Below are positions 4,646 to 24,995 of a stretch of 32,514 nt of DNA, in pieces. The DNA is from Bacteroidia bacterium (GTDB lineage: Bacteria > Bacteroidota > Bacteroidia > SpSt-205). How positions within the stretch are numbered: the first letter of the stretch is position 1; each line of letters starts with the position of its first letter. The stretch is from NCBI GenBank assembly GCA_025060275.1, contig JANXCJ010000003.1:1-32514 (forward strand). Reading direction: 5' to 3'. The position numbers and the translations under genes were made by a program. The notes beneath the pieces are model-generated. The model made no database searches. It was not told the origin of the DNA and saw only the letters and a list, made by a program, of their open reading frames with translations.

Positions 4646-5821
4646 TCATATGCGTTCTATGACTATAGCTGAGGCGCCCCCTCCGCCGTTACATATGCCT
4701 ACTGCCCCATATTTGCCTCCTGTATGATTCAGGGCTGTCAAGAGTGTGACTAATATCCGGGCTCCACTCGCACCTAGCGGATGCCCTAATGCCACAGCTC
4801 CGCCTAATATGTTCAACTTCTCTGTAGGGATGCCTAAGAGCTTTTGATTGGCTAAGGCTACGACTGCAAAAGCCTCATTTATCTCAAAGAGGTCTATCTC
4901 CCTTATTTGCATGCCTACCCTTTGGAGAGCTTTCTGAAGAGCATCTGTAGGAGCGATAGTGAACCACTCTGGCTCCCTTGCAGCGTCTGCCCAGCCGATA
5001 ATCCGTGCAAGAGGAGTAAGTGAGTATCTTTTGAGAGCCTCTTCACTGGCTAAGATGAGAGCGGCAGCCCCGTCATTAATCTTAGAGGCATTCGCTGCTG
5101 TGATGGTGCCATCAGGCTTGAAGGCAGGCTTTAGGGTAGGGATTTTCTCAAAATTAGCTTTCTTAGGCTCTTCATCTTCTCGTATTTCTTCGGTTTTGCC
5201 TTTGAGTGTAATAGGTACGGCAGCTATTTCATTACGGAATATGCCTTGGGCTTGGGCTTCTTGAGCACGCTTGTAGGAAAGGATGGCATATTCATCTTGC
5301 ATTTCTCGGGTAATTTGGTAAGTGGAAGCGCAGTTCTCGCTGATTGTGCCCATTGTCAGCCCACAGTAAGCATCCTCTAATCCATCTCGTAGAATGCCAT
5401 CTATAGCTTGAGTGTGTCCATAGCGAGCTCCACTGCGCAAGTGTGGTAGATAGAAGGGCACCTGACTCATGTTTTCCATTCCTCCCACAGCGATAAGGTC
5501 TGCTTGCTGAAGTGCTATCGTTTGTGCTCCTAAGATTACTGCTTTTAGTCCAGAAGCACATACTTTATTGACAAGGGTAGTAGGTGTAGTGGGAGGAAGC
5601 CCCGCTTTGAGAGCTACTTGGGTAGCAGGTGCTTGGCCTAAGTTCGCAGATAAGACATTTCCGAAATATAGCTCTTCTATGGCTGTAGGGGGGATATTTG
5701 CTTGCTCCAAGGCTGCCTTTAGAGCGATTGCCCCTAAATCAGGTGCAGGGACAGCGGATAGGCTCCCCAAAAAGCTCCCTATGGGAGTACGCTTTGCAGC
5801 TACGATATATATGGGTCTCAT
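4646..5821 (-). CDS. Acetyl-CoA C-acetyltransferase (thiolase)
   Basis: NKVCASGLKAV active-site Cys, GGMENMSQVPFYLP, NEAFAVVALANQ, GGAVALGHPLGASGARI and CNGGGGASAIVIE motifs. Confidence 0.95.
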   Translation of the reverse strand: MRPIYIVAAKRTPIGSFLGSLSAVPAPDLGAIALKAALEQANIPPTAIEELYFGNVLSANLGQAPATQVALKAGLPPTTPTTLVNKVCASGLKAVILGAQTIALQQADLIAVGGMENMSQVPFYLPHLRSGARYGHTQAIDGILRDGLEDAYCGLTMGTISENCASTYQITREMQDEYAILSYKRAQEAQAQGIFRNEIAAVPITLKGKTEEIREDEEPKKANFEKIPTLKPAFKPDGTITAANASKINDGAAALILASEEALKRYSLTPLARIIGWADAAREPEWFTIAPTDALQKALQRVGMQIREIDLFEINEAFAVVALANQKLLGIPTEKLNILGGAVALGHPLGASGARILVTLLTALNHTGGKYGAVGICNGGGGASAIVIERI

Positions 5822-5826
5822 AAGGG

Positions 5827-5834
5827 CAAATTAA
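5827..5834 (-). promoter_or_regulatory. Near-consensus -10 TTAATTTG, 5 nt before the thiolase ATG
   Basis: Minus strand TTAATTTG-CCCTT-ATG (one mismatch to TAnnTTTG). Confidence 0.4.
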
Positions 5835-5853
5835 GTAACTAAGTTAATCAATT

Positions 5854-7068
5854 TCATCTGCCGCTAAGAGGAGCATGCATGTCAATAATATGGCGCTTCC
5901 TTATTGCGCGTGAACGGGCTTCTGCCGTGAAATAATACCTAAATGTGGCATGAATTCTTGAGCGGCGAGCTTGTGTGGCTTCTAATACTGCCAACATGGC
6001 GGGGTTGAAATCACCTACCCAGCTCAGTTCTGCATGGGTAAAACCCATCTGGATCACAGGAGGTACGGGTAGGTACGCTAAAGCGGACTCTAACCCCCTT
6101 CGCTGAAATTTTGGACGAACCCCCATGAGCATAACTCGGAGTTTTGTGAGGATGCCATGCTTGCGGTACCAGGCATATCGGTTTCGCTTGCGCCACAGGA
6201 ATGTAAGAAGCTGAAAGAGTGTAGGTTTTCCTCTCCATGGACGGAAAATCTGATTGAGGTCTGGGATAGCCAAAATAATCCCTGCTGGTTCTCCTCCCAC
6301 GTAAGCAAAGTATATGAGTTCTGGGATGAGGATAGGCTTTAGGCTCTCCACTAAGCGGATAACTCGGTTTTCTGAGAGGGGTACGAAATGCTCATGAAAT
6401 TGCCAGGCATCGTTGTAGATAGTGCGGAAGTCCATCGCATACTTGTATAGGTTGTGAAGGTCGGGGTAGGCAAATTCCACGCCCTCTTTTTGTGCGGCTC
6501 GCTGGGCGATACGAGCTATTCTCTCCGGAATTTCACTAAGCCTCAGCTCCCGAGACTCCTGCTGGAAATATAGCTCAAAACCATAGCGCGTAAGGAAGTC
6601 CGCATAATAAGGCTTGTTATAGGGCATTCCATAAGCAGGAGGTGAGTCAAAACCCTCAATGAGTACCCCCCAAAAACGATCATTTTCTCCAAAGTTTACA
6701 AATGCATCTGCTGCCTCCATGCCCCTTTCTGCGAGCCATGCCTGCGCCGTAGAAATAAGGTCTGCTGCTACTGAATAGTCTTCTATGCATTCAAAAAAAC
6801 CCATTCCTCCTGTGGGCACAGCATATCTGTGGGCTTTGGGGTAATAGATGAAGCTTGCGATGCGTCCTAAAACTCGCCCTTTTCTATCTTGGGCTATCCA
6901 CCATTGGGCTTCTCCCTCTGCGAAGTGGGGATTCTTGTTGGGATTGAATAGCGCGCGCAGTTCCATATCTAAGGGTCCTACCCAATTTGGATCCCCTGCA
7001 TAGAGCTCTCGGGGAAGCTCTAAAAAGGCAGCTTGCTGGGTGGCATTGCGAACGGGTAGGACAGCCAT
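5854..7068 (-). CDS. GNAT-superfamily-like protein (about 404 aa) of unknown substrate
   Basis: Intact ORF with a typical N-terminus (PRELYAGDPNWVGPLDMELRALFNPNKNPHF) and a GNAT-like core (AYVGGEPAGIILAIPDLNQ, RVMLMGVRPKFQRRGLESALA). Confidence 0.75.
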   Translation of the reverse strand: MAVLPVRNATQQAAFLELPRELYAGDPNWVGPLDMELRALFNPNKNPHFAEGEAQWWIAQDRKGRVLGRIASFIYYPKAHRYAVPTGGMGFFECIEDYSVAADLISTAQAWLAERGMEAADAFVNFGENDRFWGVLIEGFDSPPAYGMPYNKPYYADFLTRYGFELYFQQESRELRLSEIPERIARIAQRAAQKEGVEFAYPDLHNLYKYAMDFRTIYNDAWQFHEHFVPLSENRVIRLVESLKPILIPELIYFAYVGGEPAGIILAIPDLNQIFRPWRGKPTLFQLLTFLWRKRNRYAWYRKHGILTKLRVMLMGVRPKFQRRGLESALAYLPVPPVIQMGFTHAELSWVGDFNPAMLAVLEATQARRSRIHATFRYYFTAEARSRAIRKRHIIDMHAPLSGR

Positions 7069-7075
7069 CCGATTA

Positions 7076-7083
7076 CAAATTTA
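7076..7083 (-). promoter_or_regulatory. -10 box TAAATTTG, 7 nt before the GNAT-like gene ATG
   Basis: Minus strand TAAATTTG-TAATCGG-ATG; overlaps the TAA stop of the upstream nuclease gene. Confidence 0.5.
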
Positions 7084-8013
7084 GCGGTGGGGCTTCTTTC
7101 TGGTTTCTTGCCAAAAAGATTTATCCACTCTTCTCTCTATCTCTTTTTCTATGCTGTCAGGCAGTCGGGGGAAAAAGTCAATCCCTGTAAGTTTTTCTAC
7201 AGAGTCTACAGGTACCAGAAAATCTAAGGGTCTTCGCTTAGAAGGGGCATGGGGTACTAAGAAAGCTACTGCACGAGGGGATTTTTCTGCCTCTATCCAA
7301 TAAACTGCCTTGTAAAAGGCCCCTGGTACAGCTATGCGACTTTTCCCGATGTATTCTATGGGATTGCTCAGGATAGGGCCTGTGTATACCACTAATCTCT
7401 TCTTTTGTTTTGCCCACTGGCGCACTATGCTTTCTACCTCCTCCCAGATTCCAGCATTGAACTCATGGATTTGCGGGCTCATATTAGAGAGAAAGAAGGT
7501 CTCACTCATTCCTACTGAGTCCCACTTGAAGTCTCCAGCGGGCACAAGGTGTCCTCTGTCATAGCCTGAGTGCCGGTAGTCCTCTAAATTAGCGGAGCCT
7601 GTTTTTACCATAGGGTCTGGCCTGAAGTCCTGTGTGCGTCTTAGACGTCCCTTGCTCAGCTTTTCTCCTTCCAGAATGTGCACTGTCCAGCGGGGCTGCT
7701 CATTCTGCTCATCATAACATAAGGCATAATACTTGTGCTGGACTATTTCGCAGTTTGGCGATTCGGCAAAGGTGAAGGATAAGCTCAGCTGGGAAGGAAG
7801 CCCTAAACTTTCTTCCTTAGGCTTTGATAAAGGCTCTTTTTGAGCAGGAGTAGGAGTAGCTGGAGTGCTATCCTGGGGAGTTTGAGTGAAAGAAATCTCT
7901 TGGTACTTGGTGATGAGGGTGTGGGAGGCCTTTTGGGCGGCGAGCCTCTCCCAAATAAGCCAGGTAGCTACGCCCAAAACAATTAGAAGTCCCAAAAGGA
8001 GTAAAACACGCAT
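7081..8013 (-). CDS. DNA/RNA non-specific endonuclease (NUC1/EndoG family), N-terminally membrane-anchored
   Basis: DRGHLVPAGDF catalytic motif, FFLSNMSPQIHEFNAGIWEEVE, VVYTGPIL; N-terminal hydrophobic helix MRVLLLLGLLIVLGVATWLIW followed by a P/T-rich linker. Confidence 0.92.
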   Translation of the reverse strand: MRVLLLLGLLIVLGVATWLIWERLAAQKASHTLITKYQEISFTQTPQDSTPATPTPAQKEPLSKPKEESLGLPSQLSLSFTFAESPNCEIVQHKYYALCYDEQNEQPRWTVHILEGEKLSKGRLRRTQDFRPDPMVKTGSANLEDYRHSGYDRGHLVPAGDFKWDSVGMSETFFLSNMSPQIHEFNAGIWEEVESIVRQWAKQKKRLVVYTGPILSNPIEYIGKSRIAVPGAFYKAVYWIEAEKSPRAVAFLVPHAPSKRRPLDFLVPVDSVEKLTGIDFFPRLPDSIEKEIERRVDKSFWQETRKKPHR

Positions 8014-8017
8014 AGCC

Positions 8018-8025
8018 TAAAAGTA
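8018..8025 (-). promoter_or_regulatory. Near-consensus -10 TACTTTTA, 4 nt before the nuclease ATG
   Basis: Minus strand TACTTTTA-GGCT-ATG (one mismatch to TAnnTTTG). Confidence 0.45.
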
Positions 8026-8048
8026 AGCTTTTCAATGGTAGTTCTTAG

Positions 8049-8056
8049 TAGTTTTG
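8049..8056 (+). promoter_or_regulatory. Bacteroidota-type -10 box TAGTTTTG, 5 nt before the prfB ATG
   Basis: TAGTTTTG-TAGGC-ATG matches TAnnTTTG exactly. Confidence 0.65.
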
Positions 8057-8061
8057 TAGGC

Positions 8062-9142
8062 ATGACGCATGAAGCCCTCAAGCAGCTTAAGGAGCGCCTC
8101 TCGGTGCTAAGGAGGTTTCTTTGACATCTCTCAGAGAGAAGCCTATGTCTCTGCCTTAGAGGCTCAAGCACAGGCACCAGATTTCTGGGAGGACCCTGAT
8201 AGGGCCCAGAAAATCTTGTCTGAGCTAAAAGCTGAGCGAGAGTGGGTAGAGAAATTTCAGCGGGCTGCTTCGGCTGTGGAATTAGCCGAAATGGCTTTAG
8301 AGCTCAGTAAAGAAGATAGCTTAGCAGAGGATGAGGTTCGGAGGGCTTTTGAGGAGGCAGAAGAGTACCTCGTAGAGTTAGAGTGGCAGAAAATGCTTTC
8401 TTCGCCAGAGGACAGCTATGGATGTGTAATAGAAATCAATGCAGGTGCAGGGGGTACGGAGGCCCAAGATTGGGTGGCTATGCTGGCGCGTATGTACACT
8501 ATGTACGCACAAAAAAAAGGTTGGAAGGTCGGAATCATTGATGAACTGATAGGGGATGGGGCAGGCTACCGAAATATTACCTTAGAGATAGATGCTCCCT
8601 ATGCTTATGGCTATCTGAAAGGAGAGAGTGGCGTGCATAGACTTGTGCGAATTTCCCCCTTTGATGCTAATGCGCGTAGGCATACTTCTTTTGCCGGCGT
8701 CTTCGTTTATCCACTCGTGGATGATAGAATAGAAATAAAGATAGATCCTAATGACTTAGAGTGGGATACATTCCGAGCTGGAGGGCATGGGGGGCAGAAC
8801 GTAAATAAAGTTGAAACAGCTGTCCGAGTGAAGCATATTCCCACGGGAATTGTAGTAACTTGCCAGCAAGAGCGCTCTCAGCATCAAAATCGTGAAAAAG
8901 CCCTACAGATTCTCAAAAGCCGCCTCTATCAATTGGAACTCCAAAAGAGACAAGAAGAAAGAGCTAAGATTGAGGCGCAAAAGCGCCCTATTGAATGGGG
9001 CTCTCAGATTCGCAGCTATGTGCTACATCCCTATAAGCTCGTCAAAGACCTTCGCACTAACTACGAGACAAGCGATGCTTTTGGGGTATTAGACGGAGAT
9101 ATTGAAGCTTTTTTGAAGAGCTACCTTCTGCAATTTTCTTGA
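8062..9142 (+). CDS. prfB: Peptide chain release factor 2, expressed by +1 programmed frameshift at TGA 8122-8124
   Basis: Frame 0: [20 protein letters not shown] then TGA. The +1 frame continues [40 protein letters not shown] in phase with ORF 8216-9142. [17 protein letters not shown] (GGQ) and [19 protein letters not shown] (SPF) motifs identify RF2. Confidence 0.97.
8110..8125 (+). promoter_or_regulatory. RF2 programmed +1 frameshift signal
   Basis: AGG AGG TTT CTT TGA C: SD-like AGGAGG, 3-nt spacer, CTT slippery codon and TGA stop followed by C, the same layout as the classic prfB site. Confidence 0.95.
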
Positions 9143-9157
9143 GGGAAGAACTCTATC

Positions 9158-11359
9158 TTAGCGTAAGTATTCCTCTATCTTAGTCTCTTCCTGTTTATCT
9201 TCTTCTGAGGGGGATTGGCAGTCGGGTAGTTTGATTCCTGGGGGAAAGGGAATGCGCCTGCGAGGTAACTTGAGAGAAGTATCTGAATAGGCAGCTTTCA
9301 TATACAATGCCCAAATAGGCATTGCCATCCGTGCTCCTTGTCCATTCACTAAGGAGTAGAAATGTACGGCTCGGTCGGCTGTGCCTACCCACACCCCCGT
9401 TACAAGCTCTGGGGTAAAGCCTACAAACCACCCATCAGCATGGTTTTGCGTAGTACCTGTCTTCCCGCCTATATCTAAATCTGTCAATCCATAACGCCAG
9501 CGCAGCTCACCAGCCGTCCCCGCTATGGTAACCCAACGAAGCATATCCACCATGAGATAAGCAGTTTTCTCGCTTAGAGCCCGGCGACTTGTGCTGGTGA
9601 AGCTTTCTATAAGGTTTCCTCTTCTATCCCTTATTTCTCTTATGAAAATAGGCTCTCGCCAGATACCCAGCGCAGGAAAGCAACCATATGCACTCGTTAG
9701 TTCCAATACACTGAGGTCACATACTCCTAATCCTAAGGCATACACAGCTTCCAGCTCCGACTGAATGCCCATACGACGAGCATACTCCACTACTACCTGC
9801 GGACCTAATGCTTTCATAAGGCGAGCAGTAACAATATTCAGTGAAAGGGCTAACGCTTTTCGGAGCTGTACCTTACCGCCTATTTCTCTGTCGGCATTTC
9901 TCGGGCTCCAAACCGTGTCCCGTCCATCTACGCGCACTGGAATCTCAACTGGCACATTGAGCTCTTCATAACAGGGAGAGTAGCCATTATCCATCGCTGC
10001 TGTATATACGAAAGGCTTGAAGGTAGAACCCACCTGTCGCTTAGCTTGAATCACATGGTCATATTTGAAGTAGGTATGATTGATGCCCCCTACCCAGGCC
10101 TTGATTTCGCCTGTATGGGGGTCTATCGTAACAAGTCCTGCTTCTAAGAAACGCAAATAATAAGCCAAAGAGTCCCACGGCGTGAGTATCGTATCTATGT
10201 ACCCTGGTGGATTCCAAGAAAAAAGGTGCATGCGTACGGGCTGATGGAACTGCTTGTAGATTTCCTTTTCGGGTACGCCTGCACTTTTGGCGACATTGTA
10301 CCTTTCACTCCGGAGCATGGCTCGCCACAGTATGCTTGTATCTTTTTTCCAGGGAAGGGGGCGGCTGCTTAGCTCTTTCTCAAAGACTTTTTGGAATGCT
10401 CTCAGGTGTGCTACCACGGCAGACTCGGCATGCATTTGCAGGCGGCTATCTATGGAGGTGTAGATTTGGAGACCATCTCGGTAGAGATCATAACCTCTTC
10501 CCCTTGCCCACTCTGTAAGCCAACCTCGGAGGTATTCTCGGAAGTAAGGCGCTAATCCCTGGCTTTGACTAGCCGTGTGAGGGGCAGACCCTACACCTAA
10601 AGGTTGACGCCGAGCTATCCTTGCCTCTTCTGCCGTGATGAAGCCGGCTTCTACCATAAGATCCAATACAAGATTGCGTCGGGCCAAGGCACGCTTAGGA
10701 TGCTTGTAAGGGCTGTAGTAAGTGGGTCCTTTCAAAAGCCCTATCAGAAGAGCTGCCTCAGAAAGGGTCAATTGCTGAACATCTTTTCCGAAGTAGAACC
10801 TACTAGCAGCCTGTATTCCGTAGGTTACGCCCCCAAAGGGCACCGTATTTAGATACATCGCGAGGATTTCCTCTTTGCTATAGTGGTATTCCAGGAAAAT
10901 TGCTACAATCATCTCCTTTAGCTTACGGCTGATAGAGCGCTCTACACCTACGGCATCGTAAAGATTGCGAGCAAGCTGTTGTGTAATGGTACTGCCTCCC
11001 CGAGTCCTACCCGAAAGAATAGAGAAAATAGCTCCTACTATACCCAAGGGATCAATTCCAGAATGCTCATAAAAGCGCCTATCCTCTACTGCGATTAGGG
11101 CATTTTTGACTACAGAGGGGATAGCGTTAGCAGGTACTCGCACTCTGTCACTGTTCAGATAAAAGGTTCCTATTATTTTCCCATCAGCGGAATAAACTAC
11201 GCTGGCTAATTCAGGCGTAGGGTCCTCTAATGTACGGAAAGAAGGCATATCTATGAATACATATAGGAAAAGCCCTAAGGGTATTCCCCAAAGGAAAAAG
11301 AGAACAATTCCGATGAGTAAAGCCCTCTCTTTGCGATACTCAGGATTTAACTGCCACAT
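9158..11359 (-). CDS. Class A penicillin-binding protein 1A (transglycosylase/transpeptidase)
   Basis: VEDRRFYEHSGIDPLGIVGA, GGSTITQQLARNLY (GT51), VGSTFKPFVYTAAMDNG (SxxK), GGKTGTTQNHADGWFVGFTPELVTGVWVG (KTG). Confidence 0.96.
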   Translation of the reverse strand: MWQLNPEYRKERALLIGIVLFFLWGIPLGLFLYVFIDMPSFRTLEDPTPELASVVYSADGKIIGTFYLNSDRVRVPANAIPSVVKNALIAVEDRRFYEHSGIDPLGIVGAIFSILSGRTRGGSTITQQLARNLYDAVGVERSISRKLKEMIVAIFLEYHYSKEEILAMYLNTVPFGGVTYGIQAASRFYFGKDVQQLTLSEAALLIGLLKGPTYYSPYKHPKRALARRNLVLDLMVEAGFITAEEARIARRQPLGVGSAPHTASQSQGLAPYFREYLRGWLTEWARGRGYDLYRDGLQIYTSIDSRLQMHAESAVVAHLRAFQKVFEKELSSRPLPWKKDTSILWRAMLRSERYNVAKSAGVPEKEIYKQFHQPVRMHLFSWNPPGYIDTILTPWDSLAYYLRFLEAGLVTIDPHTGEIKAWVGGINHTYFKYDHVIQAKRQVGSTFKPFVYTAAMDNGYSPCYEELNVPVEIPVRVDGRDTVWSPRNADREIGGKVQLRKALALSLNIVTARLMKALGPQVVVEYARRMGIQSELEAVYALGLGVCDLSVLELTSAYGCFPALGIWREPIFIREIRDRRGNLIESFTSTSRRALSEKTAYLMVDMLRWVTIAGTAGELRWRYGLTDLDIGGKTGTTQNHADGWFVGFTPELVTGVWVGTADRAVHFYSLVNGQGARMAMPIWALYMKAAYSDTSLKLPRRRIPFPPGIKLPDCQSPSEEDKQEETKIEEYLR

Positions 11360-11829
11360 GCTTTACTGAGTAAAGCTGTGGTAGAATAGTTTGGAACTAA
11401 GGGAAGGATGATTACTTCACCCCCCCATTCTCGGACGTATTCACTGCCTACGACTTTGTTAGGCGTGTAGTCTCCTCCTTTTACAAGCACTTGTGGTTGA
11501 ATTCGCTGAATGAGTCGTAGAGGGGTATCCTCATCAAAGACTACTACCGCATCTACGAATTCCAGTGCAGCTAAGAGGCGCGCACGAGATTCCACAGGCT
11601 GTATGGGGCGGCGAGGACCCTTGAGACGCCTCACAGACTCATCACTATTTACTCCTACAATCAATACATCCCCCAGTCGGGAGGCCTCTTCTAAATACTC
11701 CACATGTCCTAAGTGTAAAATGTCAAAACACCCGTTTGTAAAGACAATTTTCTGCTCTAAAAACCGCCAGTAAGCCAGCCATCTCTCTAAGTCCTCTTCA
11801 TTGAGAATTTTCTGTCGCGTTTCGTACAT
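11347..11829 (-). CDS. Glycero-manno-heptose 1-phosphate adenylyltransferase-like (RfaE2 domain only)
   Basis: VFTNGCFDILHLGHVEYLEEASRLGDVLIVGVNSDESVRRLKGPRRPIQ; overlaps the PBP1A start by 13 nt. Start MYETRQK chosen at 11829 rather than the ORF-track 11880. Confidence 0.9.
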   Translation of the reverse strand: MYETRQKILNEEDLERWLAYWRFLEQKIVFTNGCFDILHLGHVEYLEEASRLGDVLIVGVNSDESVRRLKGPRRPIQPVESRARLLAALEFVDAVVVFDEDTPLRLIQRIQPQVLVKGGDYTPNKVVGSEYVREWGGEVIILPLVPNYSTTALLSKACGS

Positions 11830-11831
11830 TC

Positions 11832-11839
11832 TATTTTTG
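11832..11839 (+). promoter_or_regulatory. -10 box TATTTTTG, 4 nt before the LRR-gene GTG
   Basis: TATTTTTG-CAGG-GTG. Confidence 0.6.
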
Positions 11840-11843
11840 CAGG

Positions 11844-12983
11844 GTGCGTGCTTGGGCAAAGGTAGGAATTTTTTTCCCACTTCTTGTTTGGGCGCAAGAG
11901 TACATTCCTACCCGTCTTGTAGTATATGATGAGCTTATAGATCGTTTCTTTCATATTACTCACTGGTCTCTTTCTGGGCAGACGGCTCGTCCAGATACTA
12001 TCCTCTACCTCAAAGTTGCTGAGAATGTACCTCCCCTTCATCGCTTCCCTAACCTTCAAGCCCTTTATCTTTCTGGAGTAGAGGAGCTTGATCTGGATGC
12101 TCTTGTAAAGGAAATCAAGAAGTACTGCCCTAAACTCAGAGCATTAGCTTTAGAGGATTGCGAAATTGTAGATATTTCTCCTCTGGCTCAACTAAATCTA
12201 CAAGGACTGCTGTTAGATCAAAACCCTATCACGGACTTTTCGCCCCTTAGCCGCTTCAAAAATCTTCAGTTTATCAGCTTAGCGCATACGGGTATTCGTG
12301 ATGTGAGTGTACTGGGACAAATTCCTACCTTGCAAGCGATAGACCTGAGTGAAACGCCTGTGGCAGACCTCAGCCCCCTTCGTACTCTCTCTCGGCTACG
12401 AATGCTCGTGCTTTTCCGGTGCAGGGAACTAAAAGACCTAACGCCCTTGCCTAACTTTACAAACTTAGAATTATTAAATATCTCTCATATACATCATAGT
12501 GTAGCTAAAGATATCCTTTTCCAGATAAGCAGACTATCAAACCTGAGGGTCCTACAAGCCCAAGGCGTAATCCAAGACGTGGCTATTTTAGCTGCGATTG
12601 GCACTCTGACGCAGTTAGAGGAGCTTACGATAGGGCAAAATCCTGCTATTCAGGATTTATCTTTTGTGAGGCTTCTTCGTAGGCTCTTATATTTAGATGT
12701 TCATCACTCTTCGGTTCGTGATCTTTCTCCCTTGGCAGGTCTGCCCAACCTTGTGAAGCTCTCCATTGGAAAGAACCAGATCACCTCATTAGCGCCTCTT
12801 AGGCAGTGTCCTAAGCTATCCTATCTATACTGCTATGAGAATCCTATTCAAGACTGGGAGAAGCTCTTAGAAATACCCTCTCTGAGCTATGTGATGTTGA
12901 GCCGAAATGATTTACCGCCCGAACGCCTAAAGTCCCTAAAAGCACAGCTGCAGTGGAAAGGTATCAAGGTGGATATTCCATGA
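11844..12983 (+). CDS. Exported leucine-rich-repeat protein (internalin-like ~22-aa LRRs)
   Basis: GTG start with signal-peptide-like MRAWAKVGIFFPLLVWAQ; repeats such as LQGLLLDQNPITDFSPLSRFKNLQFISLAHTGIRDVSVLGQIPTLQAIDLSETPVADLSPL. Confidence 0.88.
   Translation: MRAWAKVGIFFPLLVWAQEYIPTRLVVYDELIDRFFHITHWSLSGQTARPDTILYLKVAENVPPLHRFPNLQALYLSGVEELDLDALVKEIKKYCPKLRALALEDCEIVDISPLAQLNLQGLLLDQNPITDFSPLSRFKNLQFISLAHTGIRDVSVLGQIPTLQAIDLSETPVADLSPLRTLSRLRMLVLFRCRELKDLTPLPNFTNLELLNISHIHHSVAKDILFQISRLSNLRVLQAQGVIQDVAILAAIGTLTQLEELTIGQNPAIQDLSFVRLLRRLLYLDVHHSSVRDLSPLAGLPNLVKLSIGKNQITSLAPLRQCPKLSYLYCYENPIQDWEKLLEIPSLSYVMLSRNDLPPERLKSLKAQLQWKGIKVDIP
11857..11864 (-). promoter_or_regulatory. -10 box TACCTTTG for the hldE-like gene, 27 nt before its ATG
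   Basis: Plus-strand CAAAGGTA is TACCTTTG on the minus strand, inside the 5' end of the LRR gene. Confidence 0.45.
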
Positions 12984-13987: not shown

Positions 13988-14044
13988 GACTCCTTAGGAT
14001 AGCTCACCTTTTCTTTCTGGAATCCTTACCCCTACGGCTTTTTT

Positions 14045-14052
14045 TACTTTTG
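14045..14052 (+). promoter_or_regulatory. -10 box TACTTTTG, 4 nt before the saccharopine-dehydrogenase-like ATG
   Basis: TACTTTTG-CGCC-ATG. Confidence 0.65.
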
Positions 14053-14056
14053 CGCC

Positions 14057-15978: not shown

Positions 15979-17087
15979 AGTTTTCTATTCTTATTCGTTT
16001 TGGAATTTCCTTGCTTCTTACAGTCGGTGGTGCTTTAGCCTTGGATGCACTCATACCTCTGCATAAGTGGGGATGGGATATACGAGATTTGATCTATCGT
16101 CGGCTTCCTCCTCAATCACCCGATACGCAGATAGTTATCGTGGATATTGCTAAGCTAAACCGTGCTGCACTCGCCCAGCTTCTCAAGCGATTAGCTATGT
16201 CTGATCCTCTTATTATTGCGATAGATGCAGTTTTTCCCACCCCTCTTTCAGGAGAAGAAGATAGTCTATGGCAAAAAGCTTTGTGTGAAGTTTCAGTGAA
16301 TGTGCCTGTCTGTCTGGCAGCTACACTAGACTTGCGTAAGCCCATAGAAGAAGCGCCTGTTCAATCTGTGAGTATGACTGCTTTCACCCAGTGTGTAGAG
16401 CAGGCGTATGCTAACATGATTACGTATGAACCTTATGCCCCCAAGACGGTGCGTGAATTCATACCTTATACAGTCTCAGACTCAGATACACACTACTCTT
16501 TAGGTTTACGAGTAGCTCTTGCCTTAGACCCCTCTCTTCTTGGGGAGCTTCCGAACCTAATCGGAAAGGTTCCCATTCGTTACTTAGGAAATCTGGAACA
16601 TTTTTACTACCTAAGTGGTGAAGAGGTCCTGCGTGACACTAACTTGCCTAATTGGCTTCAGAATAAGGCACTTTTCTTAGGATTAGTGGACCCCCTAAAA
16701 CTCACGCTGGAGGACATTTTCTTTACTCCCCTCAATGCAGCTTTTCTGCGGCAGGATTTCCCTGATATGTATGGTGTGGTGATTCACGCAAATATTACTT
16801 CTATGCTTCGTCATAGAAGATTTTATGAAATAATCCCTAAGATATGGGCTGTACTTCTCTTAGGTCTTTTTCATCTTTTCTTATTTTTCCTATGTGGGTA
16901 CTTAGAGGGAGCATGGCGATGGGTTAGTATTCGCCTCTCCCAGATTTTAGCTTTCATAGGAACGGTTGAACTTACAATAGAATTAGGTGTCAGGGGGTTC
17001 TGGTTTCCCATAGAATCCCTTTTATGGGGGATAGTAATAGCTGGTGAGCTACTAATATGGCAGCGGCGATGGATGAAATTGGCATAG
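15975..17087 (+). CDS. CHASE2-domain membrane protein without a recognisable C-terminal output domain
   Basis: N-terminal TM, then RDLIYRRLPPQSPDTQIVIVDIAKLNRAALAQLLKRLAMSDPLIIAIDAVFP and PNLIGKVPIRYLG...VLRD...LQNKALFLGLVDP, DMYGVVIHANITSMLRHRRFYEIIP; ends after several TM helices. ATGA overlap with pdxJ. Confidence 0.85.
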   Translation: MKFSILIRFGISLLLTVGGALALDALIPLHKWGWDIRDLIYRRLPPQSPDTQIVIVDIAKLNRAALAQLLKRLAMSDPLIIAIDAVFPTPLSGEEDSLWQKALCEVSVNVPVCLAATLDLRKPIEEAPVQSVSMTAFTQCVEQAYANMITYEPYAPKTVREFIPYTVSDSDTHYSLGLRVALALDPSLLGELPNLIGKVPIRYLGNLEHFYYLSGEEVLRDTNLPNWLQNKALFLGLVDPLKLTLEDIFFTPLNAAFLRQDFPDMYGVVIHANITSMLRHRRFYEIIPKIWAVLLLGLFHLFLFFLCGYLEGAWRWVSIRLSQILAFIGTVELTIELGVRGFWFPIESLLWGIVIAGELLIWQRRWMKLA

Positions 17088-17109
17088 ATTTTGCCCTGGA
17101 ACTTTCCAT

Positions 17110-18027
17110 ATGTGGTCGCTACGAAAACTATCAGCAGTACTTTTGTATGCATTTGCCGCCGTTCTGTGCGGGCAAAATGTAACAATCCTTGCAACTAAAG
17201 GAGATGTCCAAGTAGAGCAGCCTAATGGCACTTGGGTAAAAGCCACAGCAGGGATGAAAGTGAATGAGCAGCAGAAGATTAGAGTAGGCAATCAATCTTA
17301 TGCTGCGCTCGTATTTCCGGGTAATAAAACGCGAGAACTGCGCCAGGCAGGCACCTATGTGTTATCACAACTCCTTGCGCAAAAGTCTAGTGTAGATGAT
17401 AACCCTTATGCGGTTCGTTATACAGGTTATATCCTGAACCAGGCTGTGGCCTCTACCGCAGGTCGTGCGTCTGGAAAGACATTAGGGGCTGTAACTCGTT
17501 CTACTATGGCGCCTGCTCCTCGTACCCCTGCTCAGTCTAGCTTCTATGCAGAAAAGATCGTATTCGCCTGGGACCGAGTGCCTGGCTCAGAGGGATACAT
17601 TGTTCAGATTTTGGATGATACTGGTCAGATTATACACGCTCAAGAAGTAGCAGCAGACCAAACTGCTGTAGAAATTTCTACTCTTGGTAATAAACTCAAA
17701 CCAGGGGTCTGCTACTACTGGCGTGTGAGTACTCGTCGTCATGCTAGTTTGCATTCTACAAATACGTGTTTTCGTATCTTGAGTGCGGATAAAGCCGCAG
17801 CTATAAAGAAGGAGGAAGAAGGGCTGCGCCGGAATATAGACTTGAATACAGCCCTTGGCCAGGCTCTCCTCGGAGCTTTTTATGAGCAAAATGGCCTATA
17901 TGGTTATGCATGGAGCGCCTATAATCAGGCGGTAACCTTGGAGCCAGGAGCAGATGGGTATGTAGCTCTTCGGGATGCGCTTCCTCAGCGCGTAAGCCAG
18001 CAGGCCTCTGTTAGTGTAAGCGAATAA
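17110..18027 (+). CDS. Exported FecR-like domain protein with Fn3-like middle and TPR-like C-terminus
   Basis: Signal peptide; VTILATKGDVQVEQPNGTWVKATAGMKVNEQQKIRVGNQSYAALVFPGNKTRELRQAGTYVL resembles FecR; FAWDRVPGSEGYIVQILDDTG; ALLGAFYEQNGLYGYAWSAYNQAVTLEPG. Confidence 0.75.
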   Translation: MWSLRKLSAVLLYAFAAVLCGQNVTILATKGDVQVEQPNGTWVKATAGMKVNEQQKIRVGNQSYAALVFPGNKTRELRQAGTYVLSQLLAQKSSVDDNPYAVRYTGYILNQAVASTAGRASGKTLGAVTRSTMAPAPRTPAQSSFYAEKIVFAWDRVPGSEGYIVQILDDTGQIIHAQEVAADQTAVEISTLGNKLKPGVCYYWRVSTRRHASLHSTNTCFRILSADKAAAIKKEEEGLRRNIDLNTALGQALLGAFYEQNGLYGYAWSAYNQAVTLEPGADGYVALRDALPQRVSQQASVSVSE

Positions 18028-18051
18028 ATACAAGATTGTAATGTGGATAGG

Positions 18052-18096
18052 ACAGTGAGTCTCTATGAAGAGACTCACTGTTTTTTTATTTTTTTG
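18052..18096 (+). terminator. Intrinsic terminator downstream of the FecR-like gene
   Basis: ACAGTGAGTCTCT-ATGA-AGAGACTCACTGT: 13-bp perfect stem with a 4-nt loop, followed by TTTTTTATTTTTTTG. Confidence 0.93.
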
Positions 18097-18100
18097 TAGG

Positions 18101-18889
18101 ATGAGCAAAGCAGGAATAGCCGTGCCTCTTCCTATTCTTTATCAAAGAGTGAAATGGATATATCCCTTTTTATTTGATGAAATTGTGGTGCGCAGTACGC
18201 CGCCCTTGCGCGAGGTAATGAATCGCTATCCCAAAGTTCTGCATGTGGTTAGTCATGCGGGTACCTTGGGATGGATTCCGGCTATTCTGGGACTGCTATG
18301 GGCTGCGATACTAGAGGGGGGAAAGGAGCGACGAGCAATGGGTTTATTTCATCGGGGATTGTATAGGTTCGGATTGAGTCGCTGGATATTACGCACAGTT
18401 TTTCAGAGTTATGAACCTCCTACCTTTGCTAAGGTGATACAGGCTTTTCAAAAGGAGCCTGTTAATGATATAGCTCTATTTCCGGAGGGGGATAACTGCA
18501 TACTCGGAGATGTGTATGAAATTAGACCTTTCCGCTCCCCGAAATTTATTGAGCTAGCTATAGCCGTAGAAGCACCCATCTTAGTAACCGTGCATCGCGG
18601 CTCAGAAGAGTGGGGCAAAGATTTTTATATTCCTAGCTGGATGCTAAGGTGGATAGCTAAGTGGCAGCCCACTTACATTCGTCCCCTAATGAAAAATCCT
18701 ATTTTGAATTTGCCTATTCGCATAGGGCGCATTCCGAAGTTTAGTATGCGCTGCTCCCTTTATTTTCCGAAGCTCTCCTATGATCAGCTAAGCTCTCGCC
18801 CGAGAGAGAGATGGTTTCAGCTGCATAGCGAAGCACAACGCGTCAAGCGTCTGATGGAAGCTCTCTTACAGGATATGCCTTATGTCTGA
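18101..18889 (+). CDS. Lysophospholipid acyltransferase-like protein (PlsC-related)
   Basis: VVSHAGTLGWIPAILGLLWA and ALFPEGDNCILGDVYEIRPFRSPKFIELAIAVEAPILVTVHRGSEEWGK. Start ATG 18101; the ORF-track ATG at 18065 lies in the terminator loop. Confidence 0.75.
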   Translation: MSKAGIAVPLPILYQRVKWIYPFLFDEIVVRSTPPLREVMNRYPKVLHVVSHAGTLGWIPAILGLLWAAILEGGKERRAMGLFHRGLYRFGLSRWILRTVFQSYEPPTFAKVIQAFQKEPVNDIALFPEGDNCILGDVYEIRPFRSPKFIELAIAVEAPILVTVHRGSEEWGKDFYIPSWMLRWIAKWQPTYIRPLMKNPILNLPIRIGRIPKFSMRCSLYFPKLSYDQLSSRPRERWFQLHSEAQRVKRLMEALLQDMPYV

Positions 18890-21461
18890 GAATACTGCCC
18901 TAATGGAGCAGTACAAATCAATAAAGGAAAAGAATCCCGGTGCTATCCTCCTTTTTCAGATCGGCGACTTTTATGAGACTTTTGAGGAAGATGCCCGTCT
19001 CCTGTCTTCCATTTTAGGTATTACACTTACCCGCAGGAACAATGGTAGAGCAGGGGATGTAGCACTGGCTGGGTTTCCTGTAAAAGCACTGGATACCTAT
19101 CTCCCTAAGCTGTTGGAAGCAGGATACCGAGTGGCTATATGTGATCAGGTAGAACCGCCTCACAAGGCTAAGAAGGTAGTTCGGCGAGAGGTAACTGAGG
19201 TGGTGAGTCCGGGAGTTTTTTGGGGGGGTGAAGAAGAACAAATGGATGGGCACTCCGCTTACTTAGCAGTTTTCTGGGCTCATAAGGCTACGGAAGCAGC
19301 GATAGTCCTCGCAGATGTTACCCGCACGGGTAGGATTTACTACTATGCTGGTTCTCTATCTCAGATAGAGGGGGTGCTGACGGCTTTTCAGCCTGTAGAG
19401 AGTCTGATTTATACCCAGCAGCGGAGTTTATGGGACAACCTTTTTCCTGGTGCAGCGCGAGTAGAAGAGCTGCCAGAGTGGTACTTTGATACTGGCAATC
19501 TACCCTCCCTTTTTGCAGAGGTATACGGGTATGAAGCTCCCAAAGGCTCTATCGTATGGGAGTCATCTCCTCAAGCGGCTGTTTTGGCTGCTCTTTTAGG
19601 ATACCTACGCTCTCTCAAGCAAGTACTTCTACCTCATCTACGCTTTCCTGTTCCTCTACCTGTAGGGGAAGCCTTTCTTCTTCCGCGGGAGACGTTGCGG
19701 CACTTAGAGGTGTTAGCTCCTCTTCACCCTGAGGGCAAGAGTCTTTTCCAGGTGCTCTGTTTGACTGTTACAGCAGCAGGTAGTCGTCTTTTGCGCGTTC
19801 GCCTTACCTTACCTCTTCGTGAAAGAGCTAAGATTGAGTATCGCCTTTCTCAGGTAGAAGCAATTTACGCTCATATAGAGAGTGTCTCTGTCCTTCAGGA
19901 TAGGCTTCGCGCAATTGGAGATTTAGAGCGTAGAGTAGCGCGCCTTAGCGCCCGGAAATCTTCACCCCGAGAAATAGCCCAATTGTACTATTCTCTCAGA
20001 GCTGCTACTGCTTTATGGGAAGCTCTTCCTGCTTCCTATCAAGGAGCGCCTAAAAATAGCTTTTCTGATGTATTAAGAGCGGTGGAGCTAATCTATGATT
20101 TTCTTATTCTCTCTTCTGAACCTCCTTATACAGGAGAGAAAATAGGAGAAGGCAAGGTAATCCGTGAAGGGCTAAGTGCGGAGCTGGATCGGGCTCGTTA
20201 TATACTCTCCCATGCACACGAGGAGCTCAGCCGATTAGAAGAAAAGGAAAGAGCCCGATTAGGCATACCTTCTCTAAAAATTCAGGAGAATAAGCAGTTA
20301 GGGTATGTATTTTGTATCACTTCTACTCATGTAAATAAGGTACCTCCTGAGTATCGCTTACGTCAGCAGTTAGCCCAGGGGGTAGCCCGTTACAGCAGTG
20401 ATGAGCTAGATAAGCTAAATGCGGAAATAGCTTCGGCACAGGAGGTCCTGGCACAAGAGGAGGCTCGGCTTTATGAGGTGCTTTTAGAGCAGATTAGAGT
20501 TTATATCCCTGCAATGCAGGAGGTAGCTCAATGGGTAGCTGAGGTGGACGTAGATGTAGCGTTAGCTTTGGCAGCCCACCGTTATGGATATGTGCGCCCG
20601 AAATTTACTGATAAACCTTCTATTACTATACGCAAGGGGCGCCACCCTGTGATAGAGCGTTTTCTACCCCCTCATCAGCCATATCAGCCTAATGATCTGG
20701 TGCTTACACCTGAGCAGCGCATCCTTCTCCTCACAGGGCCTAATATGGCGGGCAAGTCTGCTTACATGCGTCAGAATGCGCTGATTATCCTTTTGGCTCA
20801 GATAGGTAGCTTTGTGCCAGCAGAATCTGCCTGTATTTACCCTGTGGAGCAGATTTTTAGTCGGGTAGGAGCGTCTGACAACATTGCGGCAGGGCAGAGT
20901 ACCTTTCTTGTAGAAATGCAGGAAGCTGCGCGTATCCTTCATGAAGCTACCCCTAATAGTTTCGTTATACTGGATGAAATAGGGCGGGGTACGAGTACTT
21001 ATGACGGACTAGCAATTGCATGGGCTATCTTGGAACATCTACATAATGATCGCTATTGTTCTCCTTGGGTACTTTTCGCTACGCATTATCATGAACTAAC
21101 AGAGTTGGAGAAAGCCTTGCCTCGTCTAGCTAATTTTCATTTAGCTGTAGAGCAGCGGGGAGACAATCTGGTTTTTCTCCACCAACTGCGGAAGGGGGCC
21201 ATGCGTCGCAGCTTCGGCATTAGGGTGGCTGAGAAGGCAGGTCTTCCCCCCTCCGTGATTCAACGAGCCCAAGTTATTCTCAAACATTTAGAGAAGCAAG
21301 AGATACCCCCCTTTACAAGCGAACCTACCCTCTTCAATCTTCCTGCAGATAAGGAAGGAGCTTTGCGGCGTGCCCTCTTGGAGATAGACCCTAATACGAT
21401 CACGCCTATACAGGCCCTCTTCAAGCTGCAAGAATTACGCCTATTAGCTCAAGGAGAGTGA
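18882..21461 (+). CDS. mutS: DNA mismatch repair protein MutS
   Basis: LLFQIGDFYETFEEDARLLSSILGITLTRR mismatch-binding motif, LTGPNMAGKSAYMRQNALIILLAQIGSFVPA Walker A, LDEIGRGTSTYDGLAIAWAILEHL. Confidence 0.98.
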   Translation: MSENTALMEQYKSIKEKNPGAILLFQIGDFYETFEEDARLLSSILGITLTRRNNGRAGDVALAGFPVKALDTYLPKLLEAGYRVAICDQVEPPHKAKKVVRREVTEVVSPGVFWGGEEEQMDGHSAYLAVFWAHKATEAAIVLADVTRTGRIYYYAGSLSQIEGVLTAFQPVESLIYTQQRSLWDNLFPGAARVEELPEWYFDTGNLPSLFAEVYGYEAPKGSIVWESSPQAAVLAALLGYLRSLKQVLLPHLRFPVPLPVGEAFLLPRETLRHLEVLAPLHPEGKSLFQVLCLTVTAAGSRLLRVRLTLPLRERAKIEYRLSQVEAIYAHIESVSVLQDRLRAIGDLERRVARLSARKSSPREIAQLYYSLRAATALWEALPASYQGAPKNSFSDVLRAVELIYDFLILSSEPPYTGEKIGEGKVIREGLSAELDRARYILSHAHEELSRLEEKERARLGIPSLKIQENKQLGYVFCITSTHVNKVPPEYRLRQQLAQGVARYSSDELDKLNAEIASAQEVLAQEEARLYEVLLEQIRVYIPAMQEVAQWVAEVDVDVALALAAHRYGYVRPKFTDKPSITIRKGRHPVIERFLPPHQPYQPNDLVLTPEQRILLLTGPNMAGKSAYMRQNALIILLAQIGSFVPAESACIYPVEQIFSRVGASDNIAAGQSTFLVEMQEAARILHEATPNSFVILDEIGRGTSTYDGLAIAWAILEHLHNDRYCSPWVLFATHYHELTELEKALPRLANFHLAVEQRGDNLVFLHQLRKGAMRRSFGIRVAEKAGLPPSVIQRAQVILKHLEKQEIPPFTSEPTLFNLPADKEGALRRALLEIDPNTITPIQALFKLQELRLLAQGE

Positions 21462-22519
21462 GTAGATTGGATTATTATATCTTCCGAACTTTCTTAGTTA
21501 GTGTCTTAGGGAGCTTAGGATTACTGGTAGTGACGTTGGTGGCGATAGATGTGGCAGAGAAAATAGACGATTTTGTAGAGCGTCAGGTACCTGTTTCGGC
21601 TCTATTTCGGTATTACCAACATTTTATCCCATTTTATGCAAATCTTCTCTCTCCGTTAGTGGTGTTCATTTCTGTGCTTTTTTTTACCTCCAAGCTGGCT
21701 CAGCGCTCTGAAATAGTAGCTCTATTGGCAGGTGGCGTGAGCTTTTGGAGAATACTGCGTCCTTATCTTCTCATGGCTTCATGTTTTTCAACTATAAGCT
21801 GGGTTCTTCAGCTGTACATAACGCCTAAAAATGTACGCCGCATACAGGAATTTGAGTATAAGTATATCAAGGGAAGGTACTGGTTTGATCAGCGGCAAGT
21901 GCACATTAAGCTGACGCCTGAGGGCTATCTTTTCATACGGGCTTTTGATAGATTTGACAAAGTAGGCTTTGGAGCTCACTTAGAGCGTATAGAGAAAGGT
22001 AAATTAAGAGAGCGATTTGTAGCAGAGGAAATTCAGTGGGTAAAGGGAAAGCACTGGAAATTTCAGCGAATATGGTACTTTTCAGAGGGGCATTTACCTG
22101 CCTACAGGTTCGCCCTAGATACAATCCTACCCCTCACACCTGAGGATGTGATTCGTTCAGAACTCTATACGCGTACGATGAACCTACCTGAACTATGGGC
22201 AGAATACCAACGGCAGAAGTATGTAGGGGGTGATATCGCAAATCTCTTAGAGATGGAGCTACATGAACGGGTAGCTATTCCTATGGCTTCTATGATACTG
22301 ACTGCGTTGGGGTTTGCTTCTGCCTCTCGCAAAAAAAGGGGAGGCGTAGCCTGGCAAATCGGGTTAGGATTGCTCTTGGCATTTGTGTATGTTTTTTTAC
22401 TTAGCATCGCTAAAAGTTCTTTGGGGTCGCTTTCCGGATGGGCATGGCTTGGCATATGGATACCTAACATAGTGTTTAGCGCTGTGGGTGTAGTATGGCT
22501 GAGGTGGGTACCCAAATAG
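21458..22519 (+). CDS. LptF/LptG-family LPS export permease (YjgP/YjgQ)
   Basis: LDYYIFRTFLVSVLGSLGLLVVTLVAIDVAEKIDDF; LSPLVVFISVLFFTSKLAQRSEIVALLAGGVSFWRILRPYL; C-terminal TM block. GTG start overlapping the mutS stop. Confidence 0.92.
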   Translation: MSRLDYYIFRTFLVSVLGSLGLLVVTLVAIDVAEKIDDFVERQVPVSALFRYYQHFIPFYANLLSPLVVFISVLFFTSKLAQRSEIVALLAGGVSFWRILRPYLLMASCFSTISWVLQLYITPKNVRRIQEFEYKYIKGRYWFDQRQVHIKLTPEGYLFIRAFDRFDKVGFGAHLERIEKGKLRERFVAEEIQWVKGKHWKFQRIWYFSEGHLPAYRFALDTILPLTPEDVIRSELYTRTMNLPELWAEYQRQKYVGGDIANLLEMELHERVAIPMASMILTALGFASASRKKRGGVAWQIGLGLLLAFVYVFLLSIAKSSLGSLSGWAWLGIWIPNIVFSAVGVVWLRWVPK

Positions 22520-22552
22520 AAGAGTATTTGTTATTTGACAAGCATAAGAGTG

Positions 22553-22560
22553 TAGTTTTG
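22553..22560 (+). promoter_or_regulatory. -10 box TAGTTTTG, 4 nt before the DUF393 GTG
   Basis: TAGTTTTG-TATA-GTG; the TAG of the box is an in-frame stop for the DUF393 ORF. Confidence 0.65.
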
Positions 22561-22564
22561 TATA

Positions 22565-22894
22565 GTGTCTGAGAGAAAGCTGTATTACGACCGAAACTGC
22601 CCCATATGCAGCAGTCTCGCCAGCTGGATAGAGAAGGATGCCCATAGGGCAGGCCTCCAACTGGTGCCCACGGAGTACGATAATTTGGAGCCCCTTCCTC
22701 TACCAGTGGACTCTGTCATCTATGACCAAGAGGGAAAGCTGTGGATTAAGTCTGAAGCTATCCGGCATATTTTGAAAGACATAGGATGGGTAATTCCTGC
22801 TAAAATCGTAGGTCTGATACCCTTGCGATGGCGGGATAAAATGTATGATATCTTAGCTGCTCTCCGAAAATGGTTATTTTTATGGCGTCCCTAG
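22565..22894 (+). CDS. DUF393 (thiol-disulfide oxidoreductase DCC family) protein
   Basis: [32 protein letters not shown]: typical DxxCPxC N-terminal motif; GTG start. Confidence 0.88.
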
Positions 22895-23391
22895 TCGGTG
22901 TCGTGATGGGGAGTAAGAGTGATGCGGAGGTCATGGAGCCAGCTAAGGGCGTTTTGGAAAGTTTTGGTGTGCCTTATGAATTTACGATTGTTTCGGCCCA
23001 TCGCACACCGGATCGGCTGTGGGCTTACGGGAAGCAAGCGGCAGCTCGGGGGCTGAAAGTGATAATTGCAGCGGCAGGTGGAGCAGCACATTTACCGGGC
23101 ATGTTGGCTTCTCTTACACCGCTTCCTGTGATTGGCGTTCCTATTCGTTCTTCTCAGTCGCTATTAGGCTTGGACTCTCTGCTCTCTATTGTACAGATGC
23201 CTAAAGGAGTGCCTGTGGCTACCGTGGCTATAGATAATGCAGTAAATGCAGCTCTTTTAGCGGTGAGGATTTTAGCTATACATGATGAGAATCTGCGGTC
23301 TCGGCTCCTTGTGTATCAGGAACAGCTTAGCCGGGAGGCGCTTTTACCTATTCAGGAAGAGCCGCAGCGGTTCCATTCGGTGTCGCTGTGA
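22882..23391 (+). CDS. purE: 5-(carboxyamino)imidazole ribonucleotide mutase
   Basis: [84 protein letters not shown]. Confidence 0.96.
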
Positions 23392-23963
23392 GATACCTCA
23401 TAATAGCTTTGTTCAGTATGGGTATGGCACAAATAGAGGAGGCTACCTTTGGAGGGGGATGCTTCTGGTGTACTGAGGCTCTCTTCAAACTATTGAAGGG
23501 AGTTGAAATGGTATTTCCAGGATATGCAGGGGGGCACGTACCAAATCCGTCCTACGAACAGGTCTGTTCTAAAACCACAGGACATGCCGAAGTGGTGAGG
23601 GTACGATTTGACCCTCAGGTAATATCTTACGAAATGCTGGTAGAATACTTCTTTCTTACCCATGATCCCACCACGCTCAATCGGCAAGGAAATGACGTAG
23701 GACCCCAATATAGGTCTGTAATCTTTTACCATTCGGAAGCGCAACGAGAAACCGCAGAAAGGGTTAAAGCCCGCCTAGAGGCCCAAAAGATTTTTTCTAA
23801 GCCTATAGTTACTACCATAGAACCTCTTACTACCTTTTATCCTGCGGAGAAGTATCACTGGGATTATTTTAGTCAGCACCCTGACCAGCCTTACTGCGCT
23901 TTTGTTATCGCTCCCAAAGTCCATAAGGCAAGAGAGAAATTCAAAAAACTTCTGAGGGAATAA
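23388..23963 (+). CDS. msrA: Peptide-methionine (S)-S-oxide reductase, with N-terminal signal-like sequence
   Basis: [63 protein letters not shown] start overlapping the purE stop. Confidence 0.96.
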
Positions 23964-23981
23964 GAGTTTGAATAAGGTGAG

Positions 23982-23989
23982 TATATTTG
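23982..23989 (+). promoter_or_regulatory. -10 box TATATTTG, 4 nt before the barrel/Lys-tail gene ATG
   Basis: TATATTTG-CCGT-ATG. Confidence 0.65.
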
Positions 23990-23993
23990 CCGT

Positions 23994-24995
23994 ATGCAGC
24001 GATTCCCTTTTATAGGGCTGATAGTAATACTATTAGCTCAAGAAGCACCAGTAGGATTCGGACTGGTGCTGCGTGGGCACAGTGGCGTTGCAATAGGTTC
24101 GTTTGGCAAGCTTCGTGAGGATCTGAAAGCTGCGAATGCATTAGGTAAAGATTTTCGTATTATCCCATGGGCTACTACTGCGGGGGGAAGTTTTGATTTA
24201 CTCTTCGGGGGGCGCGTACCATTAGGGGGCGCAATACAACTTCAACATTATGATGCCTCAGAAACAGAGAGAGGTTTAGCCCGCCCTTATGCACTCCACT
24301 ATGGGGGTCAGGTAGGCTTTGCCCTTGTCAATAAAAATCTCTGGCTTTTCTATCCTTACGTAGGCTATCAGGTGGGCAGTTACCAAGTGCGTTATACAAA
24401 CTATTTCACAGAGCCGATATTTTTTGGTAATAATCAGGAGCTTCGTCCTTTGCAGAAGCGCACTTTTTCTAGTCAATTGGGTTTGGCTGAAATCGCTTTA
24501 GCTCTGCGGCGATGGAAACGAGAGCAAGGTATTACCTTGGTGTGGGGAGTAGATGTAGGGGGCTTTTTCTCTCCTTCCAAGGGTAGCTGGAAAGCTTCGG
24601 AAGGACCTAATCCTACGGGGGTTAGTCCGGCTCAACTAAGTGGAGGGTATCTTCGTTTTTCTTTAGGAGTAGGATACGTCAAGCCGAAGTCTGAGGCTTC
24701 TGCGGCGCCTCCTCCTCCCGAGCCCTCAGAGGAAAAGCCGAAAAAGAAGCGCAAGAAGTCTGAGGAGCCTGAACAAGAACCCGAGCAGAAGAAAGTAGAA
24801 GATAAGACTCAACCTCAGCCTCCTCCATCTACCATGCCCACAGAAAAACCTGAAGAAGATAAGAAGAAGCGCAAAAAGAAAGAAAAGGAAACTAAAGAGA
24901 CTAAGATAGAGTCAGCCCAACCCACAGTCTCGCCAGAAAAACCTCAAAAGGAGAGTAAAAAGAAGAAAAAATCTGACGAGGAGGATGAAGATTAG
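23994..24995 (+). CDS. Predicted exported/outer-membrane barrel-like protein with long Lys/Glu/Pro-rich C-terminal tail
   Basis: Signal peptide MQRFPFIGLIVILLAQ; barrel-like strands (GGRVPLGGAIQLQHY, LWLFYPYVGYQVGSYQVRY); tail EEKPKKKRKKSEEPEQEPEQKKVEDKTQPQPPPS...KKKRKKKEKETKETK...KESKKKKKSDEEDED. Confidence 0.7.
   Translation: MQRFPFIGLIVILLAQEAPVGFGLVLRGHSGVAIGSFGKLREDLKAANALGKDFRIIPWATTAGGSFDLLFGGRVPLGGAIQLQHYDASETERGLARPYALHYGGQVGFALVNKNLWLFYPYVGYQVGSYQVRYTNYFTEPIFFGNNQELRPLQKRTFSSQLGLAEIALALRRWKREQGITLVWGVDVGGFFSPSKGSWKASEGPNPTGVSPAQLSGGYLRFSLGVGYVKPKSEASAAPPPPEPSEEKPKKKRKKSEEPEQEPEQKKVEDKTQPQPPPSTMPTEKPEEDKKKRKKKEKETKETKIESAQPTVSPEKPQKESKKKKKSDEEDED

Follow-up and report, generated by a model that had tools for sequence, protein, structure and literature searches.

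Promoter boxes abutting start codons predict leaderless or near-leaderless mRNAs at transcription-unit heads in a Bacteroidia genus

Where does an mRNA begin when the promoter of its gene seems to end four nucleotides (nt) before the start codon? This question is raised by positions 1 to 32,514 of contig JANXCJ010000003.1 (hereafter the window), where the octamer TAnnTTTG recurs immediately upstream of start codons. The contig belongs to a Bacteroidia genome assembly (GCA_025060275.1) of 1.9 Mb in 212 contigs, with an 83% completeness. An initial annotation of the window had taken these boxes as signs of leaderless transcription at the heads of transcription units. We report that the boxes form a sharp positional signal across the genus to which this genome belongs, and that the unit-head genes of this lineage very probably make mostly leaderless or near-leaderless mRNAs.

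On its own, the motif shows no enrichment in the window (27 occurrences against 20.8 ± 4.2 expected), and the question is therefore one of position relative to starts. In the window's genome, TAnnTTTG-N4-ATG occurs 143 times against 10 for a reversed-pattern control. An annotation-free count over 390 kb gives the same distance: the ATGs of long open reading frames (ORFs) peak at 4 nt (31) and at 7-8 nt (19 and 13) after the box, with a background of about 2 per position elsewhere. We then considered gene context in four species of the genus (G000, G002, G004 and G006), using 1.59 Mb that covers only part of each genome. Genes were called by codon usage, with the box left unused, and sorted into those with a divergent neighbour and those with a co-directional gap of >50 nt, 16-50 nt or ≤15 nt; two starts, those of prfB (invisible to the gene caller because of a frameshift) and of a mis-started DCC1 gene, were placed by hand and with Pfam. 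An exact box lies 4-8 nt before the start in 270 of 733 unit heads (37%), as opposed to 36 of 588 tightly packed internal genes (6%; Fisher p = 9e-44), and shuffled upstream sequences hold a mean of 1.3 boxes at these distances, with a maximum of 4. Among the 733 heads, 144 have the box at 4 nt and 39, 33, 37 and 17 at 5, 6, 7 and 8 nt, respectively; beyond 20 nt there are 0-3 boxes per position over the four species, leaving the leader distances of 20-60 nt nearly empty. The comparison of heads, internal genes and shuffles that the initial annotation had proposed thus returned a sharp peak at 4 nt, concentrated at heads. When one mismatch is allowed, 64% (G000) and 56% (G006) of divergent heads carry a box, compared with 2-8% at shifted offsets, and in the 196 divergent heads lacking an exact box the one-mismatch versions again peak at 4-5 nt (34 and 10).

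Several features of these boxes bear on promoter identity. Guanine is depleted at the two free positions of the octamer (5-9% in spacer-4 genes of G000 and G006). In Flavobacterium johnsoniae, the free positions are likewise G-poor and the transcription start site (TSS) lies 4-5 nt after the box (PMC6847099); given this distance, a 4-nt spacer would place the TSS on the first base of the start codon. The lack of a consistent -33 TTG, noted from the window, was confirmed in the two species tested: no conserved base is found near -33 in G000 or G006, where a TTG/TTTG element would lie, and no other upstream motif stood out in spacer-4 genes. Since the -33 element is barely visible genome-wide in F. 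johnsoniae (PMC6847099), we do not treat it as defining. Among the 37 genes with spacer 7, 29 have a purine at the fifth position beyond the box and 23 have a G there (p = 8e-7 for G, whose background frequency is 24%), which fits a +1 at that base.

A second mark falls within the coding sequence. An A directly follows the start codon in 39% of internal genes, 35% of spacer-7/8 genes and 14% of those with spacer 4 (p = 0.001 and 1e-9 for the last group in comparison with spacer 7-8 and with internal genes, respectively; the bias was found while exploring, and these p values are uncorrected for exploration). At spacer 4, C is favoured in its place, and the avoidance of A is gone at spacer 7-8. 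Arg outnumbers Lys 43:5 at residue 2 of spacer-4 genes, compared with an Arg:Lys ratio of 71:75 in internal genes; at residue 3 the ratios are 17:9 and 66:42, respectively. A signal-peptide effect was considered and rejected, since in spacer-4 genes the Arg:Lys ratio stands out at residue 2 but at none of residues 3-8. Neither the purine nor the second-codon feature played any part in finding the boxes, and both marks suggest that transcription starts 5 nt after the box. Unboxed heads show a weaker second-codon bias (A 21%), a pattern that would agree with degenerate boxes and leaderless mRNAs at some of these heads. More tentatively, at somewhat less than an even chance, leaderless initiation may be the lineage default for unit heads, combined with a second-codon rule in which A is avoided and C, often in a CGN arginine codon, is favoured wherever the start codon is the predicted TSS, so that part of the start signal would lie within the coding sequence.

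From these patterns we infer the start position, the state of the RNA and the ribosomal route as follows. TAnnTTTG would act as the -7 element of the Bacteroidota housekeeping promoter; with a spacer of 4-5 nt, RNA polymerase would start on the first base of the start codon, and with a spacer of 6-8 nt, about 2-4 nt before it. In this way, mRNAs with no or almost no leader would come from some 37% of heads if only exact boxes are counted and, in the two best-sampled species, from 56-64% of divergent heads if one mismatch is tolerated. Translation would begin at a 5'-terminal AUG or GTG, recognised in all probability by ribosomes preloaded with initiator tRNA, while the tightly packed genes of operons, which have no box, would probably be translated by coupling to the upstream gene. 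The leaderless transcription first proposed for unit heads is thus supported by the distance peak, its restriction to heads and the purine and second-codon marks. As a refinement, leaders of ~2-4 nt, instead of none at all, are implied for about a third of the boxes, those with spacers of 6-8 nt.

The arrangement is conserved within the genus. Of the orthologues examined across genus genomes, 8 of 9 prfB, 9 of 10 rpsU and 8 of 9 infC genes (25/28) carry an exact box 4-8 nt upstream of the start. Among orthologous pairs of heads, which are not all independent as the four species were compared two by two, both members have a box in 31 cases, one member in 10 and neither in 20 (odds ratio 25). 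Spacer length differs in 16 of the 31 both-boxed pairs, always within 4-8 nt: it is therefore the distance to the start that is kept, rather than the spacer sequence. A column-by-column conservation count of boxed pairs was set aside as circular, both members having been required to carry the box. The infC gene starts with GTG and has its box at 7-8 nt in eight of nine genomes (loci L272-L280), so that its predicted leader of ~3-4 nt would itself be conserved. In rpsU, which encodes bS21, the box sits 4-6 nt before the start in nine of ten genus genomes (loci L262-L271), leaving no room for the extended Shine-Dalgarno (SD) sequence of many Flavobacteriales rpsU genes.

How, then, would ribosomes find such starts? 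SD-like words are no commoner upstream of starts than at a control offset in any gene class, heads or internal. The 3' tail of the 16S rRNA in G006, the one complete genome of the genus, reads GGATTACCTCCTTT and has an intact anti-SD CCUCC; most of this 16S gene (L229 1575-3022) is masked as N, leaving only the tail readable, and a search for the 16S family gave no hits in the genus. A missing bS21 or IF3 is unsupported as the cause: bS21 is present in 10 of 11 genus genomes and IF3 in 9. Nine genus genomes share an identical prfB frameshift site, CTAAGGAGGTTTCTTTGAC, which includes a perfect SD-like AGGAGG (window 8110-8125; L250-L258), and this frameshift occurs in 72% of Bacteroidia examined (PMC8710568). 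Because AGGAGG is kept in prfB although starts lack SD sequences, the anti-SD is probably still in use during elongation. The genomes are also compact: about 40% of co-directional neighbours overlap in G000, G002, G004 and G006 against 8-10% in two control genomes, and the median divergent gap is 40-65 bp in the same four against 221-301 bp in the controls. Strong genome compaction coincides with the predicted leaderless trait, and the high overlap fits translational coupling of internal genes.

We weighed three other explanations for the boxes. The best surviving of them accepts the boxes as real and supposes stronger upstream promoters of another sigma class, such that most mRNA molecules would carry a leader. 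Alternative sigma factors are widespread in the phylum, and a box is missing from about 40% of divergent heads even at one mismatch; however, the short divergent gaps leave little room for further promoters, no -33 or other motif stood out in spacer-4 genes, and near-start boxes are kept in prfB, rpsU and infC orthologues, which together make this explanation improbable. Lower odds still attach to the box being a translation signal, an unusual ribosome-binding motif within a normal leader: its link to start codons and the non-SD initiation signals known from Bacteroidota (PMC6847099) speak for this, yet internal genes also need translating and just 6% of them are boxed, the box equals the known -7 element down to the depletion of G at its free positions, no other set of boxes lies upstream to act as promoters, and a purine at +1 is a mark of transcription. 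Chance, base composition or a start-calling artefact, to which the unremarkable motif count of the window might point, carries next to no weight, since reversed patterns, shuffles, shifted offsets, internal genes and other Bacteroidota all lack the pattern, the gene caller did not use the box, and orthologous boxes survive changes in spacer length (16/31 pairs).

Some observations do weigh against leaderless or near-leaderless transcription at heads as we propose it. The unboxed divergent heads may reflect alternative sigma factors, wrong starts or real leaders, and a 22-kb locus of the genus member KatS3mg026 has a box in just 2 of 9 heads. The split between heads and internal genes rests on units inferred from gene spacing, and the adjoining genus and the rest of the order are sampled thinly.

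In the window itself, the six exact and two one-mismatch boxes that had been described were all recovered, five of the eight with a spacer of exactly 4 nt. On the plus strand, box TAGTTTTG (8049-8056) lies 5 nt before ATG 8062 of prfB (8062-9142), which encodes RF2 with PCRF and RF-1 domains and has a conserved +1 frameshift at 8119-8125. The exact box is found at 4-5 nt from orthologous starts in eight of nine genus genomes, and prfB is a predicted near-leaderless unit head, divergent from a nuclease gene (Endonuclease_NS) whose own one-mismatch box TACTTTTA (8018-8025, minus strand) precedes ATG 8013 by 4 nt. Also on the plus strand, box TATTTTTG (11832-11839) stands 4 nt before GTG 11844 of a gene with an LRR Pfam match, whose orthologue in G006 has a box at the identical distance. 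The LRR gene and a divergent cytidylyltransferase-like gene have starts just 14 nt apart (window 11829-11864); a minus-strand box at 11864-11857, inside the LRR gene, lies 27 nt before the cytidylyltransferase-like ATG 11829, which is possibly a rare leadered case with overlapping divergent promoters.

Spacers of 4 nt also separate box TACTTTTG (14045-14052, plus strand) from ATG 14057 of a saccharopine dehydrogenase-like gene (Pfam), whose orthologues in G006 and G004 have the box at equal distance, and a second copy of TAGTTTTG (22553-22560, plus strand) from GTG 22565 of the DCC1-like (DUF393) gene, in which the Pfam match begins at residue 6 of the ORF counted from this GTG. The same holds for box TATATTTG (23982-23989, plus strand) and ATG 23994 of a 333-aa gene, described as a "barrel" gene, for which a Pfam search gave no match. 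A one-mismatch box TTAATTTG (5827-5834, minus strand) lies 5 nt before ATG 5821 of a gene with a thiolase Pfam match, and a further one-mismatch candidate, TTTTTTTG (18089-18096, plus strand), 4 nt before a gene at ATG 18101, is given low weight because it sits in a T-run. Two details of the initial annotation needed correction. The msrA gene, listed as having no box, has an exact one, TAGCTTTG (23404-23411, plus strand), 6 nt before ATG 23418, with the PMSR domain starting 7 residues after this codon. Conversely, the 404-aa GNAT-like gene, for which a Pfam search gave no match, is not a unit head: box TAAATTTG (7076-7083, minus strand) lies 7 nt before its ATG 7068, the co-directional nuclease gene ends 12 nt upstream of the GNAT-like gene, and its TAA stop includes the TA of the box, making the box an internal-promoter candidate. 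An Rfam search of the window found no match.

How far does the trait reach? Over 11 genus genomes together, TAnnTTTG-N4-ATG occurs 1871 times against 110 for the reversed control, as compared with ratios of 1-2.5 in most other Bacteroidia and mostly near 1 across the remaining classes of the phylum. When 66 contigs from other Bacteroidota are processed like those of the four species, the box falls at 4-8 nt in 30 of 759 heads (4%) and mostly lies at 15-30 nt and beyond; this 4% is close to what has been measured in B. thetaiotaomicron, where 3.7% of 5' untranslated regions are shorter than 10 nt (PMC7366714), and in F. psychrophilum, with 5.5% leaderless (PMC9723704). Two larger control genomes have boxes at 1 of 42 (G052) and 7 of 44 (G033) divergent heads, a difference showing that the trait varies within the class. 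Family f41 is a second enriched group of Bacteroidia (pattern/control 356/75 in G051, 269/77 in G090 and 288/89 in G122), with the box at 3-9 nt in 10 of 38 heads in a small sample of G051. Nearer to the genus, samples are also small: 4 of 8 divergent heads are boxed in another genus of the family (G011) and 3 of 12 heads in another family of the order (G012). A MutS single-gene tree places the genus on a long branch with no reliable sister group. The genus includes Bacteroidia bacterium KatS3mg026, and KatS3mg names denote the Katase hot spring metagenome. That spring is at 52 °C (PMC9671151; the main text does not name the KatS3mg026 metagenome-assembled genome), and we infer a hot-spring habitat for this member.

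We found no report of a mostly leaderless Bacteroidota lineage in the open-licence PMC literature. Of 37 Bacteroidetes/Chlorobi genomes in a survey, a single one had leaderless genes, at 2.4% (PMC3160421), and near-start placement of the box is rare in the rest of the phylum. According to a review of gene-start models, leaderless transcription is predicted for 21.6% of bacterial species, and the FCB group is instead assigned non-canonical AT-rich ribosome-binding sites (PMC9581028); the values measured in B. thetaiotaomicron and F. psychrophilum disagree with this view. Bacteroidota are the standard example of SD-less bacteria. A lineage seemingly without leaders at most heads, which keeps the anti-SD, bS21, IF3 and an SD-driven prfB frameshift, provides a natural experiment separating these functions, and box position offers a means of correcting start annotation in genus genomes.

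Taken together, our findings place this lineage beside three known systems. The sigma-ABfr promoter, -33 TTTG / -7 TAnnTTTG (PMC6847099, PMC9723704, PMC7366714), shares the -7 octamer and the G-poor free positions, and its TSS 4-5 nt after the box is also the one predicted for this genus, although here the -33 element is missing in the two species tested and the box sits at the start codon instead of ~20-30 nt upstream. SD-independent Bacteroidia with a sequestered anti-SD (PMC6847099, PMC8710568, PMC9976891) are alike in their intact anti-SD, bS21, SD-less mRNAs and AGGAGG prfB frameshift; in the present genus, however, the leaders themselves appear to be missing at heads, and the rpsU box takes up the room for an extended SD. 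The TA-led leaderless genes of Actinobacteria, Deinococcota and further bacteria (PMC3160421) likewise combine a -10-type box ~10 nt before the start with a position at unit heads and no SD, whereas the sigma factor and the box differ here. The share of predicted leaderless heads falls among the values that the survey gives for the phyla richest in such genes, and this genus would add a Bacteroidota lineage to the leaderless-rich bacteria, which are known mainly from Actinobacteria and Deinococcota.

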